From the NCBI GenBank assembly GCA_024280375.1, contig JAJRQF010000060.1, forward strand, positions 1-64,000: DNA of 64,000 bases, given 5' to 3'. The notes under the pieces were generated by a model. It had not been told where the DNA came from. It saw only the letters and a program-made list of their open reading frames with translations, and did no database searches. Below are positions 29,716 to 40,634 of the stretch, one piece after another; the stretch's first letter is position 1, and every line of letters starts with the position of its first letter. A program made the position numbers and the translations under genes. The DNA comes from Alphaproteobacteria bacterium (GTDB lineage: Bacteria > Pseudomonadota > Alphaproteobacteria > Rhizobiales > Rhizobiaceae).

Positions 29716-29977
29716 TGCCGTGACATGAATTGCGCCGCCCAAATAATAGACTGCCAATTGGCGTTTGGTGGATTTTGCTGCTCAAAAATCGACCTCGAGC
29801 AAAAAAATTTTCAAATTATTTCCCCTTGCAACAACAATTGTAACAACAGCCTGAACACATAAAACACTCACACTTGCCACACCGAATTGAGAAAAATAGC
29901 CTTATATCTTGCTTGCAATAGGAAACATTACAAAGGTTTAATTCACACATAAGAATATACCTATCTATATGTGACGC
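29716..29977. other. AT-rich intergenic region, no gene seen
   Basis: About 260 bases between the terminator and the dyad before the EF-hand gene. It is rich in A/T, with an ACAACAACAATTGTAACAAC stretch. No gene or clear promoter was found. Confidence 0.4.
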
Positions 29978-30003
29978 ATCACCTTCCAGTGCTGGAAGGT
30001 GAT
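29978..30003. promoter_or_regulatory. Perfect dyad resembling a MerR/CueR-type operator
   Basis: Two perfect 12-base arms (ATCACCTTCCAG and CTGGAAGGTGAT) meet across two bases. The inner ACCTTCC-N6-GGAAGGT is close to the E. coli CueR site, ACCTTCC-N7-GGAAGGT, from memory. An ATCACC-N19-TCAACC arrangement resembles the long-spaced promoters MerR proteins distort. It lies 25 bases before the EF-hand start. A plain mRNA hairpin is the alternative. No MerR gene is in the window. Confidence 0.45.
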
Positions 30004-30027
30004 CAACCAAATATGGAGAGAGAACCT

Positions 30028-30498
30028 ATGACAATTTTTAAAAAAGCATTATCTACGACAGCAGCAATCGCGCTGATTGCCGGTGCCGTTGCATTTTCTG
30101 GCGCGGCAAATGCTGCAAGCCACGGCGGTGGGCAAAAAATGATGAAACGATTCGGTATGATCGATGCCAACGGTGATAAAAAAATCACCCCGGATGAAGT
30201 AATGGAATTTCGCGGCTCTGTCTTTGCATCAATGGATGCGGATGATGATAATGAGCTGACTATGGAAGAGTTTATGGCGGTCAAAATGGACGCTGGCGAA
30301 GGTAAAAATCCTGAAAAAATGAAAAAGAAACAGGAGAAAAAGCGCGCCAAATTCAAACCAATGGATACGGACGGCTCTGGTAAAGTCTCAGAAGCTGAAT
30401 GGACTGCGGCCGGCAAATCCGGTTTTGCCAAGGCAGATGCCGATGGCGATGGCGCTATGTCCTTCAAGGAATTCCGTGATCATCACAAAGACCACTAA
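30028..30498 (+). CDS. Secreted EF-hand calcium-binding protein
   Basis: A 156-residue protein with a signal peptide ending at ANA before ASHGG. Four EF-hand loops follow: DANGDKKITPDE, DADDDNELTMEE, DTDGSGKVSEAE and DADGDGAMSFKE. A lysine-rich linker separates the pairs. It is likely a periplasmic calcium binder of unknown role. ATG 30028 is chosen since a signal peptide begins there and GGAGAG precedes it. It resembles in design the EF-hand protein at 59655. Confidence 0.87.
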   Translation: MTIFKKALSTTAAIALIAGAVAFSGAANAASHGGGQKMMKRFGMIDANGDKKITPDEVMEFRGSVFASMDADDDNELTMEEFMAVKMDAGEGKNPEKMKKKQEKKRAKFKPMDTDGSGKVSEAEWTAAGKSGFAKADADGDGAMSFKEFRDHHKDH

Positions 30499-31727: not shown

Positions 31728-33341
31728 TTATCCTTCCAATTCAACAAAATTACTGGCCTGGGTCACGACCCTGCGCATATGTTTTCGCTTTATTGGCTCG
31801 TTAACAAACCGGTTTAATGCGGCAAGTGCCACCGGTTTCCAACTGGCATCGGGTTTAATTGAAAGCTCTTCCCGCAGTGCGGTTGCCAACTTCAAAGTAT
31901 GGGCCGGGAAAATATATATTGGTTCTCCGTGGTCCAACATCCCCTCAAGCACATCGCCAATTAATGGTTCTGCATCAGCCATCTTCCAGTTTTCAACATC
32001 CTGCTGCCAATCAACAAATTTAGAGTTTCGACCCAGAAAGCAGCCGGTTTGCAGCAGCGCATTGGCCCAAAGATGAGGTTGGTCCGCGCAATTTTTGCGG
32101 GCGGCGTTGAGATGGGTAATCGCATGGGTGAAATCCAGCCAATCGACATTTTGCTGCACCGGCTTGTCGGTAAAGCTGCGATAACGGGCATCGTAATGCA
32201 ACATTGCGTCCCATGCGGCGTGCATCAGCGCGTCATATAACGCTTCACCCGTATTAGAGGATGCGGCGATCAGTTTCATTGCGGCAGCAACGCCCTGATC
32301 GCGGAAACCATCGCCATCTGGAATTTTGTTGCCCGCATTGCTCCATGCAGACAGGGTTGGACCATAGGCCTTGAATTCAGGTATAAGATCTTCGCGCGCG
32401 GTCGAACAAAGTGCGCGCACCAATGGCAGTATCACGGCTTCTTCGGCAGGCTTTCCAAGCAGCTCAACAAGTTCATAGGTCTTATCGAGATATATCACCG
32501 AGTGGCCAAACGCCTGATAATGGGCCAATGAGGCGCGCTGTAAAGACCCCCGCAAGAGACTTGCTCCGCCTTCGGCAAGCCCTGCCCTCGCCTGAGCGAT
32601 TGCATCCGCTTCCCTCTCCTCTTCAATCGCGCGTTCAAATGCATCCGCATCAAAACTTTCAGCGATTTTTTCAGAATAGGGAAATGGCCCCTTTTGCATC
32701 AGACAGTCCCAGGAAAGATGACCGATGATCTCGACCACCGGAATGCGTTTGTCGGTTGCATTGGTAATGGCTGGCGAACCTCGCAAGGCGAGCCAGTCAG
32801 GCGCTGCCGCATGGGCATGGGTGGTGCCAGACTCCAGACCATCCATCGCCCAGGAAAACGCCAATGTCAGCGCTTCCATTGGATCACCCTTAGCGCGTTC
32901 AAACCGGGCAATTTCGCGGGCAATACGTTCATAATCATGCTCTTCAAATGCCTGATGCAGCCCATCAATTGCCTTTTTGCGCATGATCTCAGGTGGTGGG
33001 TTGGAAATATCAAGCCAGATTTCTCCGCCTCTTACTTCATGCGGGTACAGACGCACCGCATCGCCACCGACAATGGCTTCGCCGTCATCGAGATTGAAGC
33101 GCCAGGAGTGCCAATTGCAGGTCAAAATACATTCCCTCTCCTCAGCATCACTGCTTAATGTGCCTTCGGAGAGCGGAAAACCTTCATGTGGGCAACGGTT
33201 GTTCAGGGCATAAATTGTATCGCCAGATTTGATCAGCAAAATTTGTTTGCCGGAAATCTTCACCACCAGCTTTCCTGCGTCTTCTAGTTTTTTGAGAGAA
33301 ATGGCTTTTTCCCAAAAGGGCTGAGTGGCGACATCGGTCAT
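31728..33341 (-). CDS. Rieske [2Fe-2S] protein with large unknown C-terminal domain
   Basis: A 537-residue protein. Residues 1-110 form a Rieske ferredoxin domain with ligands Cys50-x-His52 (CPHEGFPL) and Cys75-x2-His78 (CNWHSW). The remaining 430 residues are mostly helical, with WDAMLHYDARYRSF, HLWANALLQTGCF and IYIFPAHTLKLA, and match no family I recognise; they do not look like a ring-hydroxylating dioxygenase. It has no signal peptide. The SufR-like regulator is divergent, 99 bp away, suggesting control by Fe-S status. The reaction is unknown. Confidence 0.8.
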   Translation of the reverse strand: MTDVATQPFWEKAISLKKLEDAGKLVVKISGKQILLIKSGDTIYALNNRCPHEGFPLSEGTLSSDAEERECILTCNWHSWRFNLDDGEAIVGGDAVRLYPHEVRGGEIWLDISNPPPEIMRKKAIDGLHQAFEEHDYERIAREIARFERAKGDPMEALTLAFSWAMDGLESGTTHAHAAAPDWLALRGSPAITNATDKRIPVVEIIGHLSWDCLMQKGPFPYSEKIAESFDADAFERAIEEEREADAIAQARAGLAEGGASLLRGSLQRASLAHYQAFGHSVIYLDKTYELVELLGKPAEEAVILPLVRALCSTAREDLIPEFKAYGPTLSAWSNAGNKIPDGDGFRDQGVAAAMKLIAASSNTGEALYDALMHAAWDAMLHYDARYRSFTDKPVQQNVDWLDFTHAITHLNAARKNCADQPHLWANALLQTGCFLGRNSKFVDWQQDVENWKMADAEPLIGDVLEGMLDHGEPIYIFPAHTLKLATALREELSIKPDASWKPVALAALNRFVNEPIKRKHMRRVVTQASNFVELEG

Positions 33342-33357
33342 GGTGAAATCCTTTTAT

Positions 33358-33373
33358 GAAAGCAATTACTTTC
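33358..33373. promoter_or_regulatory. Inverted repeat in the Rieske/regulator divergent gap
   Basis: GAAAG-CAATTA-CTTTC lies in the 99-bp gap between two divergent genes. It is a possible operator for the adjacent SufR-like regulator. It does not match the published cyanobacterial SufR site CAAC-N6-GTTG. Confidence 0.35.
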
Positions 33374-33440
33374 GAAACTAATTCACCCCCTTGAATTACG
33401 CAAGTAAAAACTTTAGAAAAAGAAAACTGGAGATACCAAT

Positions 33441-34076
33441 ATGCAAAAACCCGCTGGCAGTCGCCGGAAAATAATTGATATTTTAAAGCGCAGCGGTGCA
33501 AGTGATGCGGCCAGTCTGGCTGAAAACCTGGGCATATCGCCAATGGCGGCGCGCCAACATCTTTACACACTTGCGGAGGAAGGTCTGGTTGAGGCAAAAT
33601 CCAGCCCGGATGGCATTGGCCGCCCTTCTAAACAATGGCGGCTGACCCCGGCTGCCGAACAATTTTTCCCACAGGGCTATGCGGACTTAACCGCCGGCCT
33701 ACTCTCTTCCATGCGCGAGGCATTTGGCGAAGATGGCGTTGATAAAATCATTGATATTCGCATGCGCGACCAACTCAACGCCTATCAAACGCGGCTCAAT
33801 GGAACCGATAACCTTTTGGCCAGACTTGAAGAATTGGCCAAAATCCGTACCGAAGAAGGTTATATGGCCGAGGTGCGCAAGGATGATGAGGGCTATTTGT
33901 TCATCGAAAACCATTGCCCCATTTGTGCAGCGGCCAAGGCCTGCACCGGGCTTTGTTCGGCTGAATTATCGCTGTTTAAATCGGCGTTGGGCGATGATGT
34001 TAAAGTCGAGCGCACCGAGCATATTCTACTTGGCGCACGGCGCTGTGCTTATCGGGTGTGCCGGGTTGGTGGGTGA
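33441..34076 (+). CDS. SufR-like helix-turn-helix regulator with Fe-S cysteines
   Basis: A 211-residue regulator. Residues about 8-70 are a winged helix (SLAENLGISPMAARQHLYTL, then the wing with GRPSKQWRLT). The C-terminal part has Cys159, Cys172 and Cys202 with spacings of 13 and 30; cyanobacterial SufR uses three cysteines with spacings of 13 and 28 for its cluster. Further cysteines are 162, 168 and 207. It is likely a [4Fe-4S]-sensing repressor. GGAG lies before the ATG. It is divergent from the Rieske gene, its probable target. Confidence 0.8.
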   Translation: MQKPAGSRRKIIDILKRSGASDAASLAENLGISPMAARQHLYTLAEEGLVEAKSSPDGIGRPSKQWRLTPAAEQFFPQGYADLTAGLLSSMREAFGEDGVDKIIDIRMRDQLNAYQTRLNGTDNLLARLEELAKIRTEEGYMAEVRKDDEGYLFIENHCPICAAAKACTGLCSAELSLFKSALGDDVKVERTEHILLGARRCAYRVCRVGG

Positions 34077-34274: not shown

Positions 34275-34583
34275 CTAATCATTACTACTATAGGCTTCCT
34301 CTTTATCTTTATTTTTCCTTTTGCCAGCCCTACCGGTGCTATAAGCTTCCTCTTTGTCTTTAACTCTCTTTTTACCAGCTCCACCAGTGCTATAAGTAGC
34401 GCCATAAGCTTCCTCTTTATCATTTTTAGAGGCTTTAAGTTTGCGACTTTTACCAGCGACTTGATACACGTCTGGGTTTTTCGAGTTCACCATTGACACA
34501 GTGTCTAATTCAGATACTGCCGAGGCCATTGCAGCCGTCGAAATGGTAAGAGTCATGGCACATGCTATAAGAATTGTTTTCAA
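34275..34583 (-). CDS. Secreted protein with DKEEAY repeats
   Basis: A 102-residue exported protein. A signal peptide ends near ASA (residue 22). The C-terminal half contains three repeats of DKEEAY at residues 55-60, 76-81 and 93-98, separated by STGGAGKKR and STGRAGKRK. The repeats are strongly charged and probably disordered. They are visible in the DNA as recurring GCTTCCTCTTTATC-like units. The start is TTG (34581-34583) behind AAGGAA; an upstream ATG at 34634 gives a poorer signal. I do not recognise the family. Confidence 0.65.
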   Translation of the reverse strand: MKTILIACAMTLTISTAAMASAVSELDTVSMVNSKNPDVYQVAGKSRKLKASKNDKEEAYGATYSTGGAGKKRVKDKEEAYSTGRAGKRKNKDKEEAYSSND

Positions 34584-34634
34584 TTGAATTTCCTTTTTTA
34601 TTGTTATCAACGAACAACCGACTAATACGTTCAC

Positions 34635-35537: not shown

Positions 35538-37040
35538 ATGAAAAATAGAACCGAAAAATTTACAACTGAAGACCTCCCCCTAAATTGCCCACCTGTCGAA
35601 CCCTCAATGGAATACGACAATGCAAAGGCGGCGGTGGATCAGATCAAGAAAATATACGCCGCCAACACCCAGTTTTTACGTGACAGCTTTGTTGCAGCAA
35701 CAGGCGGAAGCGCCGCCAAAGAACGCTACCGCGCCTGCTATCCGCAATTGACCATAATCACCACATCGCACAGCCGGGTGGATTCACGCCTCGCCTTTGG
35801 TTATGTGGGCGGCCCCGGCATTTATTCCACCACCATTACCGAACCTGAACTCTTCAGCTTTTATCTGAAAACCCAGATTGGCCTGCTGTTGAAAAATCAC
35901 GGCGGAACCGTAAGCGTTTCAACTTCTGACACGCCAATTCCACTGCATTTTGCCCTGAATGAAGACAGCCACCTTTCCGGCTCGCTCGATGATATGCTTA
36001 AACGCCCCTTGCGCGATGTTTTTGATGTGCCAGACCTTTCATCCATCGACGACAAGATCGTCAATTCGAAGCTTGAGATTGATACCGAAGAATCCACGCC
36101 GCTTGCGCCCTTTACTGCCCAGCGGATCGACTATTCGTTGCACCGACTTTCGCATTATACGGCTACCAAACCGCGCTATTTTCAAAACTATGTGCTGTTC
36201 ACCAATTACCAGTTTTATATTGATGAGTTCATCAAATATGCAAAAGAGGCCGTGCAGGACGAGACCAGCGGCTATGGAAGTTTTGTGGAACCGGGCAATT
36301 ACATTACCAAAACCGATGGCTCTATAACCGGGGAACCGGCATCACGCGCACCGCAAATGCCAGCCTATCACCTCACCCGGCCGGATAAATCCGGTATTAC
36401 CATGGTCAATATCGGGGTTGGGCCATCGAACGCCAAAACCATCACTGACCATGTGGCCGTATTGCGCCCGCATACTTGGCTTATGCTTGGCCATTGCGCC
36501 GGATTGCGCAATTCGCAGGAGCTTGGCGACTATGTGCTGGCCCATGCCTATGTGCGTGAGGACCACGTGCTGGACGAGGATTTACCCGTTTGGGTGCCCA
36601 TTCCGGCACTCGCCGAAGTGCAGGTGGCAATGGAGCAGGCGGTTGCCGATGTGACCGGCTATTCCGGCTATGACCTTAAGCAGGTGATGCGAACCGGCAC
36701 GGTTGCCACCATTGATAATAGAAACTGGGAATTGCGCGACCAGCGCGGCCCGGTGCAAAGACTTTCGCAATCGCGCGCCATTGCGTTGGACATGGAATCG
36801 GCCACCATTGCGGCTAATGGTTTTCGTTTTCGCGTACCCTATGGCACGCTTTTATGCGTGTCGGACAAACCCCTGCACGGGGAATTGAAACTGCCGGGCA
36901 TGGCGACTGATTTTTACACCAATCAGGTGGCGCAGCATTTGAAAATTGGCATCAAAGCGCTGGAAGCACTGCGCGATATGCCATCGGAAAAACTGCATTC
37001 ACGCAAATTGCGTAGTTTCTTTGAAACGGCATTTCAGTAG
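35538..37040 (+). CDS. amn: AMP nucleosidase
   Basis: A 500-residue protein of the usual length for bacterial AMP nucleosidase. It has an N-terminal regulatory domain (YRACYPQLTIITTSHSRVDS, GYVGGPGIYSTTITEPELF) and a C-terminal nucleoside-phosphorylase-like domain with MVNIGVGPSNAKT, LMLGHCAGL and IALDMESATIAANGF. It splits AMP into adenine and ribose 5-phosphate, adjusting the AMP pool. It stands alone in transcription, with no strong ribosome site before the ATG. Confidence 0.94.
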   Translation: MKNRTEKFTTEDLPLNCPPVEPSMEYDNAKAAVDQIKKIYAANTQFLRDSFVAATGGSAAKERYRACYPQLTIITTSHSRVDSRLAFGYVGGPGIYSTTITEPELFSFYLKTQIGLLLKNHGGTVSVSTSDTPIPLHFALNEDSHLSGSLDDMLKRPLRDVFDVPDLSSIDDKIVNSKLEIDTEESTPLAPFTAQRIDYSLHRLSHYTATKPRYFQNYVLFTNYQFYIDEFIKYAKEAVQDETSGYGSFVEPGNYITKTDGSITGEPASRAPQMPAYHLTRPDKSGITMVNIGVGPSNAKTITDHVAVLRPHTWLMLGHCAGLRNSQELGDYVLAHAYVREDHVLDEDLPVWVPIPALAEVQVAMEQAVADVTGYSGYDLKQVMRTGTVATIDNRNWELRDQRGPVQRLSQSRAIALDMESATIAANGFRFRVPYGTLLCVSDKPLHGELKLPGMATDFYTNQVAQHLKIGIKALEALRDMPSEKLHSRKLRSFFETAFQ

Positions 37041-37052
37041 AGTCACGTGGGA

Positions 37053-37484
37053 TTATTGCCCGGAATGAAGCCTTTTCTTATGCTCGGTTGCCACTAAAAA
37101 ACCTTGCGCTGCGGCCTTGCCTAGCCAATATTCTGCCTTTTTAAGGTCCCGCCTGAATATTTTCCAACCACCTATTCCCCAATGGCCGTCATATTCCTGA
37201 TGCAAATCAAATTGTGCAAATTTATCGCCGCTTTCAGCAGATTTTAACAACCATTGAGCGGCCAACATATTACTTTTCGCAACTCCCTTACCCGTAAAAT
37301 AGTTCGATGCGGTAAAGAATTGCGCGCTGGCATCACCTTTATTTGCTGACGACAACATCCATTTAAACGCAGTCGCCTCATCCTTCGTAAACCCCTGTTT
37401 TCCTTCGAGCATCCTGAATGCAATCTGTTTTTCCGCATTCGGATCACCATTTTTTGCAGCTGCCAATAACTCTTCCCGATTCAT
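37053..37484 (-). CDS. Sel1-repeat protein
   Basis: A 143-residue protein with Sel1-like repeats, for example TAFKWMLSSANKGDASAQFF and AAQWLLKSAESGDKFAQFDL. The ATG (37482-37484) overlaps the stop of the upstream Sel1 gene as ATGA, so the two are translationally coupled. No signal peptide is visible, unlike its partner. Sel1 repeats are protein-binding helical pairs; the role is unknown. Confidence 0.78.
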   Translation of the reverse strand: MNREELLAAAKNGDPNAEKQIAFRMLEGKQGFTKDEATAFKWMLSSANKGDASAQFFTASNYFTGKGVAKSNMLAAQWLLKSAESGDKFAQFDLHQEYDGHWGIGGWKIFRRDLKKAEYWLGKAAAQGFLVATEHKKRLHSGQ

Positions 37485-38863
37485 ATTCCAAACAGATTTG
37501 GACAAACGCGAATATCCCTCGGAATAGATTTCGCAACCTCTTTGACCGCCTTGATCTTTTTACCGAGATTTTCAATATTCTTCATGGCATAGGCAAACTC
37601 AAACTCTTCGTTTAATTCCTTGACCCTTTTGAGCAGCCGTGCGGTTTCTACTTTTCCTTCGGCGCTTTGGTCTCCGGCCTGAATTTTTGCTAATCTAGCC
37701 TTGATTTTTTTCTGAATGGCGCTCATTTCTTTGGCGACTTCTTCAACACTGCGTCGTCCTTTTTTCGCCGACTTAATCTGTTTCGGATTGCCGGGCAAAA
37801 GCCCTTTGGATTTACCCAGGGTTGGAGAATCGGGGGCAATTGCCGAGAGCGGTTTTGGTTTTTTCTGATCGAATTTGTAAACCCGTTGCAATTCCTTGCG
37901 CATTTCTACCGATAATTTCTCCTTCTGCGCATAGGCTTTTGTTGCCCAAAGTGCAGCCTCAACCGGATTTTTATCAACTTCGACACCAGCATGGTAAGTT
38001 TCGAACATTATATATTGGGCCGCCACATAACCACCTTCGGCAGACTTTCGAAGCCAATAGAGGGCTTTTTCGTTGTTAACTTCAACGCCTTTTCCAAATG
38101 TATATTTTAATGACACGCTATATTGTGCCAAAGCATGGCCATTTTTTGCAGCTTCCATTTCCCACAGGAAGGCATTTTTGATGTCTTTCTTGATGCCGGG
38201 ATTACCAAACTCCAGCCGCCTCGCCAGCTCATATTGCGCAGTCGGGTCACCGTTTTGAGCCCGCGAAATCAGTTCGGTTTTGCCCAAACTTGAATATTGT
38301 ATTTTGATGGGCTGGGCGGATTTTACTAAAGCAGGTGCTTTTTTCCGGCCAATATTATCAGCGTTATTTTTGTAGGGCTTACCTTGCTTAATCGCAATAA
38401 ACTCTGCTTGAAGCTGCTTAAACAACCGCTCGTCATCTGCATCGCCTTTACCTGCCAGAATTCTTTCTTTGGCTGCTCTGATTCTCTTAATTATGCTGCG
38501 AAGTCGACGCCGGGTAACTTCAACGCTGTCCATTGTGGTGACCTGGCCTTTTGGGGCCGCCACTTGATCAAGCGCATCCTTATTCCATTTCCCTGGCGGT
38601 AAGCCGAGGCCCCTGGATGTTCCCAGAACTGGCACACTGGAACCGGCCGCCTCGGGGCTATTACTTTGCATTGTGCGGTCAGCAAGGCGTTTTTCTAGTG
38701 TATCTGCCGCATTTTGATCGCCCTTGCTGGCGCGGGAAGAAAGCTCAAGCAACCCCATCCGGCTGTAATCTAATGGAGCCGCGGTCTGGGCATGGCCAGC
38801 AACCATTCCAGCAAGCAAAAAGATGGCAAGGAATGTAATTTTTTGTGCAAGAATCAGCTTCAT
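37481..38863 (-). CDS. Exported Sel1-repeat protein
   Basis: A 460-residue protein with a signal peptide ending near GHA before QTAA. After a low-complexity region come Sel1 repeats around ISRAQNGDPTAQYELARRLE and NEKALYWLRKSAEGGYVAAQ, then a long charged, probably coiled-coil C-terminal part (MSAIQKKIKARLAKIQAGDQ, LLKRVKELNEEFEFAYAMK). ATG 38863 is chosen because GGGAA precedes it and a signal peptide begins there; the longer frame upstream is antisense-like. It is coupled to the second Sel1 gene. Confidence 0.78.
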   Translation of the reverse strand: MKLILAQKITFLAIFLLAGMVAGHAQTAAPLDYSRMGLLELSSRASKGDQNAADTLEKRLADRTMQSNSPEAAGSSVPVLGTSRGLGLPPGKWNKDALDQVAAPKGQVTTMDSVEVTRRRLRSIIKRIRAAKERILAGKGDADDERLFKQLQAEFIAIKQGKPYKNNADNIGRKKAPALVKSAQPIKIQYSSLGKTELISRAQNGDPTAQYELARRLEFGNPGIKKDIKNAFLWEMEAAKNGHALAQYSVSLKYTFGKGVEVNNEKALYWLRKSAEGGYVAAQYIMFETYHAGVEVDKNPVEAALWATKAYAQKEKLSVEMRKELQRVYKFDQKKPKPLSAIAPDSPTLGKSKGLLPGNPKQIKSAKKGRRSVEEVAKEMSAIQKKIKARLAKIQAGDQSAEGKVETARLLKRVKELNEEFEFAYAMKNIENLGKKIKAVKEVAKSIPRDIRVCPNLFGI

Positions 38864-38921
38864 GGCGTTCCCGTTGATTTGTTTACGCCTTGTGTACCAA
38901 TTAATTGCACCAATCGGCAAA

Positions 38922-40634
38922 TTACATATTCGGGTAGACCGGCCCCTCGCCACCTTGCGGTGGCACCCAGTTGATATTCTGGTTCGGGTCTTTGATGTCG
39001 CAAGTTTTGCAATGGACGCAATTTTGCGCATTGATGACAAATTTCGCACCATCGCCTGTTGCAAGCATATCACCTGCCGGTATCGTATCGCCATTTGCAT
39101 CCACCCACTCATAAACCCCAGCCGGGCAATAGCGTGATGAAGGCCCGGCAAATTTGTGCAATTCCGAACTCTCCTGCAGAGCCAAATCGCTCAGGTGAAG
39201 ATGCACCGGCTGCTCTTCTTCGTGATTGGTGTTGGACAAGAACACCGAAGACAGGCGGTCAAAGGTCAGCTTTCCATCCGGTTTGGCATAGGGGATGGGT
39301 TTGTGTTTGCTTGCAGGCTCCGTCGCTTCCGCATCGGTTTTACCATGCTTCATGGTGCCAAGCGGCGACCAGCCGCCCAATAAGGTGGTGAGCCACATAT
39401 CAATGCCGCCGAGCATGACGCCGCCGATAGTGCCGAGCTTCGACCATAGCGGTTTGATGTTACGGACAAGTTTGAGATCCTTGCCAATAGCGCTATCGCG
39501 CCAGCCATCCTCATAGGCAGAAATCTCATCGCCCTCACGGCCGGCGGCAATCGCTTCGGCAACATGTTCGGCCGCCTGCATGCCGGAAAGCACAGCATTA
39601 TGCGAACCCTTGATGCGCGGTACGTTCACAAGACCTGCAGAACAACCAATCAGCGCCCCACCGGGAAAAGTGAGCTTTGGAACAGACTGGAAGCCGCCTT
39701 CGGTGATGACACGGGCGCCATATGAAATGCGCTTGGCACCTTCAAACAAGGGAGCAATGGCCGCATGGGTTTTGAATTTTTGAAATTCTTCAAACGGCGA
39801 AAGATATGGATTTTTGTAATTCAAATGCACGACAAATCCGACCGCAACCTGATTGTCTTCCAGATGATAGAGGAACGAACCGCCACCGGTTTTCATATCC
39901 AGCGGCCAGCCGAAAGAGTGCTGTACCAGACCCTGCTGATGCTTTTCAGGCTCAACCTCCCAAAGCTCTTTCAGGCCAAGACCGAATTTTGCCGGCTCAC
40001 AATCCTTGTCCAGCGCATATTTGGCGATCAACTGCTTGGCGAGAGAACCGCGTGCACCCTCGCCTATCAGCACATATTTGCCGGTCAGCTCCACACCGCG
40101 TTCAAAATTGGGTCCGGGCTTGCCATCCTTGCCAAGGCCCATATCGCCGGTGGCAACGCCAATTACCGCACCATCGTCATTGTACAAAACCTCAGCTGCG
40201 GCAAAGCCTGGAAATATCTGCACTTCCATGCTTTCGGCTTTTTCGCCAAGCCAACGGCATACATTGCCGAGCGAAACGATATAATTGCCATGATTGTTCA
40301 TCAAAGGCGGCATCATGAAATTGGGCAGGGTCATGCTGCCAGCCGGCCCCAGCACCAAAAACTTGTCTTTTGTAACCGGGGTTTTAAACGGATGATCAGC
40401 CTCATCACGCCAACCGGGCAGCAGTGCATCAATGCCAGATGGGTCGACCACCGCGCCGGACAAGATATGCGCGCCGATCTCAGCCCCCTTTTCAAGAAGC
40501 ACAATTTCCAGGTCGGCATTAAGCTGTTTCAACCGGATTGCGGCTGAAAGACCTGCCGGGCCACCGCCGACAATCACCACATCAAATTCCATCCGCTCGC
40601 GGGCATCCAATTCTGTGGTTTCAGCTTCAGACAT
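38922..40634 (-). CDS. Electron-transfer flavoprotein-ubiquinone oxidoreductase
   Basis: A 570-residue ETF-QO. The FAD-binding start is VVIVGGGPAGLSAAIRLKQL. The middle contains GCSAGLVNVPRIKGSHNAVL. The C-terminal ferredoxin-like part has CPAGVYEW and NCVHCKTCDIKDP, with cysteine ligands of one [4Fe-4S] cluster. The enzyme passes electrons from ETF to ubiquinone at the inner membrane, which all acyl-CoA dehydrogenases in this window need. ATG 40634 is preferred because GCAGGAGA precedes it. It is not close to the dehydrogenase island but serves it biochemically. Confidence 0.95.
   Translation of the reverse strand: MSEAETTELDARERMEFDVVIVGGGPAGLSAAIRLKQLNADLEIVLLEKGAEIGAHILSGAVVDPSGIDALLPGWRDEADHPFKTPVTKDKFLVLGPAGSMTLPNFMMPPLMNNHGNYIVSLGNVCRWLGEKAESMEVQIFPGFAAAEVLYNDDGAVIGVATGDMGLGKDGKPGPNFERGVELTGKYVLIGEGARGSLAKQLIAKYALDKDCEPAKFGLGLKELWEVEPEKHQQGLVQHSFGWPLDMKTGGGSFLYHLEDNQVAVGFVVHLNYKNPYLSPFEEFQKFKTHAAIAPLFEGAKRISYGARVITEGGFQSVPKLTFPGGALIGCSAGLVNVPRIKGSHNAVLSGMQAAEHVAEAIAAGREGDEISAYEDGWRDSAIGKDLKLVRNIKPLWSKLGTIGGVMLGGIDMWLTTLLGGWSPLGTMKHGKTDAEATEPASKHKPIPYAKPDGKLTFDRLSSVFLSNTNHEEEQPVHLHLSDLALQESSELHKFAGPSSRYCPAGVYEWVDANGDTIPAGDMLATGDGAKFVINAQNCVHCKTCDIKDPNQNINWVPPQGGEGPVYPNM

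Follow-up and report, generated by a model that had tools for sequence, protein, structure and literature searches.

A divergent gene pair in the window, i.e., the whole stretch of 64,000 nucleotides analysed here (contig JAJRQF010000060.1, positions 1 to 64,000, from a bacterium of the Rhizobiaceae), probably encodes a two-domain Rieske oxygenase with a questin-oxidase-type iron site under a dedicated SufR-like repressor, the two together forming a module for compound handling or detoxification; we put the probability of this reading at about 0.6. The gene of the Rieske–questin-oxidase-like fusion protein (P0001, 537 amino acids) is an open reading frame (ORF) at positions 31728..33341 of the minus strand, and its family was searched for in 289 genomes of the same class. 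The gene of the SufR-like winged-helix regulator (P0002, 211 amino acids, 121 bits against TIGR02702) lies on the plus strand at 33441..34076, and the gap of 99 bp between the two genes (33342..33440) is the divergent promoter region. These coordinates, strands, lengths and the gap agree with those given in an earlier note on this DNA. The gene pair, the predicted fold, the conserved residues, the operator and the regulon described below were obtained by computation. G handles denote the genomes of the class that were searched and L handles denote loci, among which the window locus itself is counted.

The fusion protein and its candidate iron site

The N-terminal part of the fusion protein (residues 10–110; 33012..33314, minus strand) is a Rieske [2Fe-2S] domain, as the earlier note had recognised. 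Residues 10–90 matched PF00355 with 52.6 bits (cut-off 20.3), and the ligand pattern C50-P-H52 ... C75-N-W-H78 was invariant in all 30 aligned homologues. For residues 110–537, no Pfam or NCBIfam match over the cut-off and no convincing sequence match in the PDB was found, and the PDB sequence matches to oxygenases ended at the Rieske domain. Moreover, neither the fusion protein nor its 30 homologues gave a catalytic Pfam match of the Ring_hydroxyl_A type, which is not what a canonical Rieske oxygenase alpha subunit would show. The best Pfam hint for this part was PF14407 (Frankia_peptide) at residues ~121–162, which reached 14.7 bits in the window protein against a cut-off of 48; at E ≤ 1 it appeared in 10 of the 30 homologues, with 6.2e-5 as the best value.

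The C-terminal region (residues 111–537; 31731..33011, minus strand) was predicted to be all-helical by AlphaFold2 (AF2), both in the full-length model (predicted local distance difference test, pLDDT, 77) and in the model of the domain alone (pLDDT 79.2, predicted template modelling score 0.82). When the domain-only model was compared with the PDB by VIA-align, the six best rows all belonged to BTG13, AflY and PaD (Z 14.7–16.9). The BTG13 structures 7y3w (Z 16.9, 330 residues, root-mean-square deviation (rmsd) 4.4), 7y3y (16.9) and 7y3x (16.8) were aligned over 323–332 residues with an rmsd of 4.2–4.5, and were followed by AflY 8yxs (16.2) and PaD 8z4q (14.8) and 8z4r (14.7). The next rows were AAA-ATPase fragments with Z 13.3 (103 residues) and 12.8 (87 residues), after which the values were 5.5 and lower. 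With the full-length model, AflY 8yxs (Z 14.7) stood above every Rieske chain, and PaD 8z4q (12.9) came close after. Foldseek with the domain-only model also ranked 8yxs first (probability 1.00, E 0.024). The Foldseek search with the full-length model had Rieske chains in its 50 rows and was set aside. An identity with the AAA-ATPase C-terminal fragments (8g28, 2r9g) was rejected as well, as they cover just 87–103 residues; the sub-bundle at residues ~231–317 does resemble the fragment 2r9g (87 residues, rmsd 1.7, Z 12.8).

At the level of sequence profiles, the C-terminal domain was compared by hhalign with the stand-alone questin oxidases of the same class, which gave a score of 33.8 (E 0.0014). 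This score was not reached in 300 column shuffles (best 25.2), and the reversed control scored 17.6. The alignment, whose probability was 18%, paired FTHAIT with FTHAIT and HTLK with HAIK. The global mode of hhalign returned a meaningless alignment of 54 columns and was discarded.

On the basis of the models, the C-terminal domain is most likely a questin-oxidase-type dioxygenase domain. The earlier note had described 430 unrecognised helical residues that might be a new redox partner, and had named a match to a known enzyme, to be sought by structure prediction, as the result that would speak against it. The all-helical character and the lack of a Pfam match stand, but the predicted fold (Z 14.7–16.9) is that of a known enzyme family, BTG13/AflY/PaD, with fungal ring-opening iron dioxygenases among its members, and since it matches questin oxidase, BTG13, AflY and PaD, the idea of a new redox partner finds no support.

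Seven residues, H175, H274, H280, H406, H471, H481 and K484, were invariant across the 30 rows, and five of them (H175, H280, H406, H481 and K484) follow the His/Lys order of the questin oxidase family. The first two candidate iron ligands, H175 (32817..32819, minus strand) and H280 (32502..32504, minus strand; H274 is its invariant neighbour), match that family in order and spacing only. The third, H406 within FTHAIT (32124..32126, minus strand), was aligned by hhalign with H248 of L116, and the fourth, H481, which together with the lysine forms H481-x2-K484 (31890..31901, minus strand), with H316-x2-K319 of the same protein. The spacings are 175-280-406-481-484 in the window protein, 28-117-234-303-306 in L038 and 58-158-?-374-377 in BTG13. 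For BTG13, H158 and H374-x2-K377 were read from the alignment by hand count, and an H58F mutant appears in the title of a PDB entry; we take its iron ligands to be four histidines and a carboxylated lysine (K377). In six questin oxidases from Rhizobium plasmids (L039–L044) the lysine is absent, and they have EHDVSL or EHDISL at the position where L038, BTG13 and the stand-alone questin oxidase set of the same class have HxxK.

The fusion was present in 26 of the 289 class genomes, as 25 full-length genes including that of the window and one broken copy, and the contigs of named genomes added five near full-length homologues and a partial one. The broken gene (L027, G163:C72) has two internal stops, and its genome retains the regulator beside two major facilitator superfamily (MFS) genes. 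Identity to the window protein ranged from 38 to 91% across the 30 aligned rows, the closest homologue being L032 from a metagenome-assembled genome of the Rhizobiaceae (91%), on account of which the class was taken to be Alphaproteobacteria. Five of 398 genomes drawn from the phylum contained the C-terminal domain, all of them of the same class and with open frames of at least 527 amino acids. The Rieske part was present in all 30 aligned rows and in G589, and no homologue of the C-terminal domain without it was seen in this set, from which the N-terminus of G567 was left out. No relative was found in viral contigs, nor in the plasmid collection at E 1e-20.

The SufR-like regulator, its probable operator and its partner genes

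Against the TIGR02702 (SufR) model the regulator scored 121.1 bits, below the cut-off of 178.8, and two further relatives scored 127.1 and 124.4 bits. Its cysteine cluster, C159, C162, C168, C172 ... C202 (33915..34046, plus strand), was assessed in an alignment of 39 regulators, the truncated row of L033 being left out: C159, C168, C172 and C202 occurred in 39/39 and C162 in 33/39. The earlier note had pointed to C159, C172 and C202 as ligands of the SufR type; these are present and conserved and are joined by C162 and C168, but the score does not make the protein a SufR equivalog. Its own genome holds a single close regulator of this type (336 bits, the next one 21.8).

The gap between the genes carries two copies of TTTnnAAAG-N6-CTTnnnnAA over the inferred Rieske promoter, the promoter elements having been assigned by eye. 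Copy 1, TTTCTAAAGTTTTTACTTGCGTAA (33396..33419, minus strand), reads TTTCTAAAG-TTTTTA-CTTGCGTAA toward the Rieske gene (33419–33396), and its right half overlaps the probable -35 element TTGCGT (33398–33403). Copy 2, TTTCGAAAGTAATTGCTTTCATAA (33354..33377, minus strand), reads TTTCGAAAG-TAATTG-CTTTCATAA in the same direction (33377–33354) and is located at and after the probable -10 element TAGTTT (33375–33380); in L003, the -10 element at the second copy is TATTAT. As the first copy overlaps the -35 element and the second begins at the -10 element, the layout is that of repressor sites. The earlier note had seen one GAAAG-N6-CTTTC, which is located at 33358–33373 and is the core of copy 2. 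Such a 5-bp inverted repeat is weak when taken alone, and it gains weight because it forms the core of a 24-bp operator copy that recurs in related loci.

The operator was scored over 13 consensus positions, the consensus having been built from the fusion loci. A pair of sites 40–44 bp apart, both with at least 11/13, was present in seven loci (window, L032, L003, L033, L006, L011 and L012), a weaker pair (11 and 10) in L008, and one clear copy in L009, L010, L013 and L037. In 500 simulations for each of the 12 divergent fusion gaps, the score was reached in six for L037, one each for L033 and L008, and none for the other nine; as the consensus was derived from the fusion loci, these gaps do not test the operator independently. 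In G277, where the regulator is oriented in the same direction, a site of 12 lies upstream of the regulator. A different palindrome, AACCAATTGGTT, was noticed by eye before the regulator of L034, just upstream of 4603, and may represent an operator switch. In the genome of the window, the strict pattern had three matches, two of them in the 99-bp gap, and a control pattern also had three. The third site, C48:2513, was treated as a chance match, because its contig, judged by the ORFs, resembles the replication region of a plasmid and because the control pattern was equally frequent.

Relatives of the regulator were found in 33 of the 289 class genomes (E 1e-30), and 15 of 32 loci had a homologue in the sequence flanking the Rieske gene. 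The regulator occurred in 17 of the 26 fusion genomes versus 16 of the 263 genomes without the fusion (Fisher p 1.8e-12, relatedness ignored). Partner genes were sought by BLAST at E 1e-8 within ~4–7 kb to either side, or in a shorter stretch where the contig ended. Among the 33 genomes, the regulator adjoins the fusion gene in ten and lies 1.9 kb from it in G211; it is divergent from an MFS gene in nine, belonging to seven genera by their labels, and from a stand-alone questin oxidase in two (G123 and G227, one genus). The regulator tree did not resolve three clean groups according to the partner gene, and the number of partner changes is uncertain, as its deep forks are open or weakly supported. 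The oxidases of G123 and G227 pass PF14027 with 43.4 and 47.1 bits (cut-off 27), and the stand-alone oxidases under the same regulon have ~349 amino acids and questin oxidase as their sole Pfam match. The three MFS proteins that were compared with Pfam were above the MFS_1 cut-off, and the two that were compared with NCBIfam resembled SdrM/EmrB multidrug exporters with scores below the curated cut-offs. The fusion gene of G105 is immediately followed by an MFS gene belonging to the same group.

A search with the PF14027 family at E 1e-10 matched 1 of 96 class genomes, and the protein search with L116 found the oxidase in 7 of 289, including G009, G052 and G091, which were among those 96 genomes but had not been matched by the family search. 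The regulator is present in five of these seven genomes (p 2.6e-4, without regard to relatedness), and in G009, G143 and G091 the oxidase is encoded away from it.

The 11 MFS and oxidase gaps are an independent test of the operator and stand for about eight genera. A site of at least 11/13 within 200 bp upstream of the regulator was present in 9/9 MFS loci and 2/2 oxidase loci. Elsewhere in the 27 regulator loci scanned, this score was reached at 7 of 270,168 positions, four of which are in L047, where sites occur before the fusion gene. In 200 simulations, the operator score was reached in no run for 9 of the 11 gaps.

The site was also scored at genes that do not adjoin the regulator. The distant fusion genes of G037 and G263 (one genus), where the regulator is found beside an MFS gene on another contig, have an operator of 11/13, a score reached in two and one of 200 simulations, respectively. 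The fusion gene of G211 has a site of 12, and the oxidases of G009 and G143 (one genus), far from the regulator, have an upstream site of 11 (7/200 simulations each). Where the regulator is absent, the operator score was at most 9/13 at the fusion genes (9/9 genomes), and 8 and 7 at the oxidases of G052 and G071. The regulator very likely controls the Rieske gene, as the earlier note had proposed, since the pair is conserved, the regulator is SufR-like and the gap carries a probable operator. Judged by its sequence relatives and their partners, it looks like a dedicated repressor of quinone or aromatic handling genes rather than a Suf regulator.

Proposed mechanism and alternative readings

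For the metal, the electron path, the substrate, and the cluster and signal of the regulator, we infer the following scheme. Electrons from a cellular reductase would enter at the N-terminal Rieske domain and from there reach a mononuclear non-heme iron in the C-terminal domain; the site of this iron would be built from H175, H280, H406, H481 and K484, the lysine possibly being carboxylated. An aromatic resembling a quinone or hydroquinone would then be oxidised or cleaved by the enzyme. Regulator dimers on the two TTTnnAAAG-N6-CTTnnnnAA sites would cover the Rieske promoter and probably the regulator's own promoter too, and they would release the DNA once a redox-active compound reduces or damages the cluster bound by their cysteines, probably of the [4Fe-4S] type, or causes its loss. 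In other members of the class, the same type of repressor and operator would act on the gene of a stand-alone questin oxidase or on that of an MFS transporter of the efflux type, and it is for this reason that a handling or detoxification module is proposed.

Several results weigh against this reading. As regards the fold, the AF2 models were built on seven sequences and have weak stretches at ~317–338 and ~392–398, and all-helical models may reach Z ~13–14 in VIA-align through a common arrangement, so that weight is placed on one family filling the top rows and covering most of the domain. PF14027 matched none of the 30 homologues at E up to 1, so that by score the fusion proteins fall outside this Pfam family. 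The hhalign probability of 18% for the C-terminal profile against the stand-alone oxidases of the class is low, and it fell to 0.9% against a mixed PF14027 set and, for the whole-protein profile, to 0.2% against a PF14027 set of seven (six rhizobial). As regards the regulon, 11 of the 33 regulator genomes have no fusion, MFS or questin oxidase gene next to the regulator, and among the regulators without a recognised partner an operator of at least 11 was found in 1 of the 10 gaps scanned, most being weak or lacking it (the regulator of G007, at a contig edge, was left out of the scan). Two MFS gaps were weak by simulation (L123, 14/200; L120, 3/200). The fusion loci L034 and L035, in which the regulator is oriented like the fusion gene, have no operator (score 8), nor do the fusion genes of G107 (8), G261 (9) and G034 (9) or the oxidase of G091 (8), in whose genomes the regulator lies elsewhere. 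Finally, 9 of the 26 fusion genomes lack the regulator, the assemblies G226 and G228 being just 70–80% complete.

Among the alternatives, the one that survives best, although we think it rather unlikely, assigns the Rieske domain a smaller role: the questin-oxidase-like domain would draw its electrons from a hydroquinone substrate, and the Rieske domain would only re-reduce inactivated iron. Fungal enzymes of the questin oxidase type take electrons from their hydroquinone substrate, and ferredoxins of some ring-cleavage systems re-reduce the inactivated iron of extradiol dioxygenases. The stand-alone members of the regulon, with ~349 amino acids and only the questin oxidase match, indicate that a Rieske domain may be dispensable for the chemistry. 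However, all 30 homologues have the Rieske domain, with its four ligands invariant, which suggests stoichiometric use.

Somewhat less probable is the idea that the regulator is a SufR-like sensor of Fe-S supply that adjusts the Rieske protein to cluster availability. The protein is SufR-like, its four cysteines are conserved in 39/39, and the 4-N6-4 geometry of the operator and the divergent layout resemble those of sufR/sufBCDS, where, according to PMC13421787 and PMC4755962, SufR binds CAAC-N6-GTTG between the genes. SufR (Synechocystis sll0088 and actinobacterial proteins) likewise has a winged helix and a C-terminal cysteine domain. The published SufR cysteine sets differ between sources, being C164/C171/C206 in Synechocystis (PMC13421787) and, presumably, 171/175/188/216 in C. 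glutamicum (PMC11995493), and the CX12C spacing of the latter is shared by the window regulator, which has the set C159, C168, C172 and C202. On the other hand, the regulator is under the SufR cut-off, its operator AAAG-N6-CTT differs from that of SufR in its letters while the spacer is equal, and the whole own genome has just three strict matches, two of them in this gap. Beside the regulator, oxygenase or MFS genes were recognised in place of the suf operon, with 11 of 33 neighbourhoods unassigned; no suf gene was recognised among the neighbours that were read, those in the same 11 genomes not being identified. Compound handling is preferred over Fe-S supply mainly because in other genomes the regulator is paired with an MFS gene or with a stand-alone questin oxidase that has no Rieske domain. 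The regulator is thus like SufR in its layout but, by sequence, fails the SufR cut-off, target and operator comparisons.

It is improbable that the fusion protein is a biosynthetic tailoring enzyme rather than a detoxification enzyme. The characterised relatives BTG13 and AflY act in fungal polyketide pathways, but no neighbour family except the regulator was found in more than 5 of the 30 fusion loci (with a crude ORF picker), and the alternative partners include an efflux-type MFS gene. Least probable is a fold match that reflects a mere common helical arrangement in a domain that binds no iron: the low identity (8–10%), the rmsd of 4.2–4.7 Å and the lack of a Pfam match would allow it, but the six best rows are one enzyme family covering most of the domain, the motif order agrees in hhalign, and the regulator independently pairs with PF14027 proteins.

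Relation to known systems and neighbouring genes

The fusion protein appears to work like a Rieske oxygenase and has the predicted fold of a questin oxidase, being a full member of neither family. With the questin oxidases (PF14027: BTG13 7y3w, AflY 8yxs; the hydroquinone dioxygenase PaD, 8z4q, by fold) it has in common the predicted fold over 323–336 residues and the order of the conserved histidines and the HxxK motif. It differs from them in the fused Rieske domain, in the further invariant H274 and H471, and in being too diverged for the Pfam model. As in the alpha subunits of Rieske non-heme iron oxygenases, a single chain carries a Rieske domain at the N-terminus and a probable catalytic domain behind it. 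In the canonical subunit, the catalytic domain has a helix-grip fold and a 2-His-1-carboxylate site, whereas the second domain of the fusion protein is predicted to be all-helical, has His/Lys motifs and lacks a catalytic Pfam match; because of this difference, it is not a canonical Rieske oxygenase. The role proposed for the regulator resembles SoxR-type regulation, in which an Fe-S regulator responds to redox-active compounds and controls an exporter or an oxygenase, but SoxR belongs to the MerR family and the window regulator is SufR-like.

To our knowledge, Rieske clusters feed mononuclear iron in one catalytic fold only. We put forward, as a tentative and somewhat doubtful proposal, that the fusion proteins are a new class of Rieske oxygenase, which arose separately from the classical ones when a Rieske cluster was wired to an iron site of the questin oxidase type with His4/(carboxy)lysine ligands, and that a subfamily of SufR-like repressors was re-purposed as sensors of quinones or redox cyclers that switch on an oxygenase in some members of the class and an exporter in others. 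If true, a second, unrelated catalytic partner would reveal which features electron delivery truly needs, and access would be gained to a reservoir of bacterial enzymes that cleave quinones or aromatics. The presence of a questin-oxidase-type enzyme and an efflux-type MFS gene under one repressor and operator offers a class of substrates to test with a domain that escapes Pfam, and it suggests that a SufR-like regulator can act outside Fe-S biogenesis. In the open-access literature, searched mostly by title and the start of the abstract, no report joining a Rieske domain with the questin oxidase family was found; papers containing both 'Rieske' and 'hydroquinone dioxygenase' exist. A BTG13 paper is among the references of PMC12186474.

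Around the fusion gene, only the regulator recurred among the neighbour families in more than 5 of 30 loci, a count affected by the crude ORF picker and by shadow ORFs in GC-rich DNA, and the attempt to name a pathway from the neighbours failed for this reason. Four further features were noted near the pair in the window. A small protein at 29971–30498 (plus strand) contains several Asp-rich loops and, by its look, may belong to the EF-hand proteins. An ORF of 119 amino acids at 34275–34634 (minus strand) has a signal-peptide-like N-terminus followed, in its second half, by a repeated KDKEEAY...TG-AGK unit. The 500-amino-acid protein at 35538–37040 (plus strand) is, presumably, similar to AMP nucleosidase, judging by its motifs. 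Two adjoining ORFs on the minus strand, at 37053–37505 and 37481–39151, resemble Sel1-type repeat proteins and formed one cluster in the all-against-all comparison.

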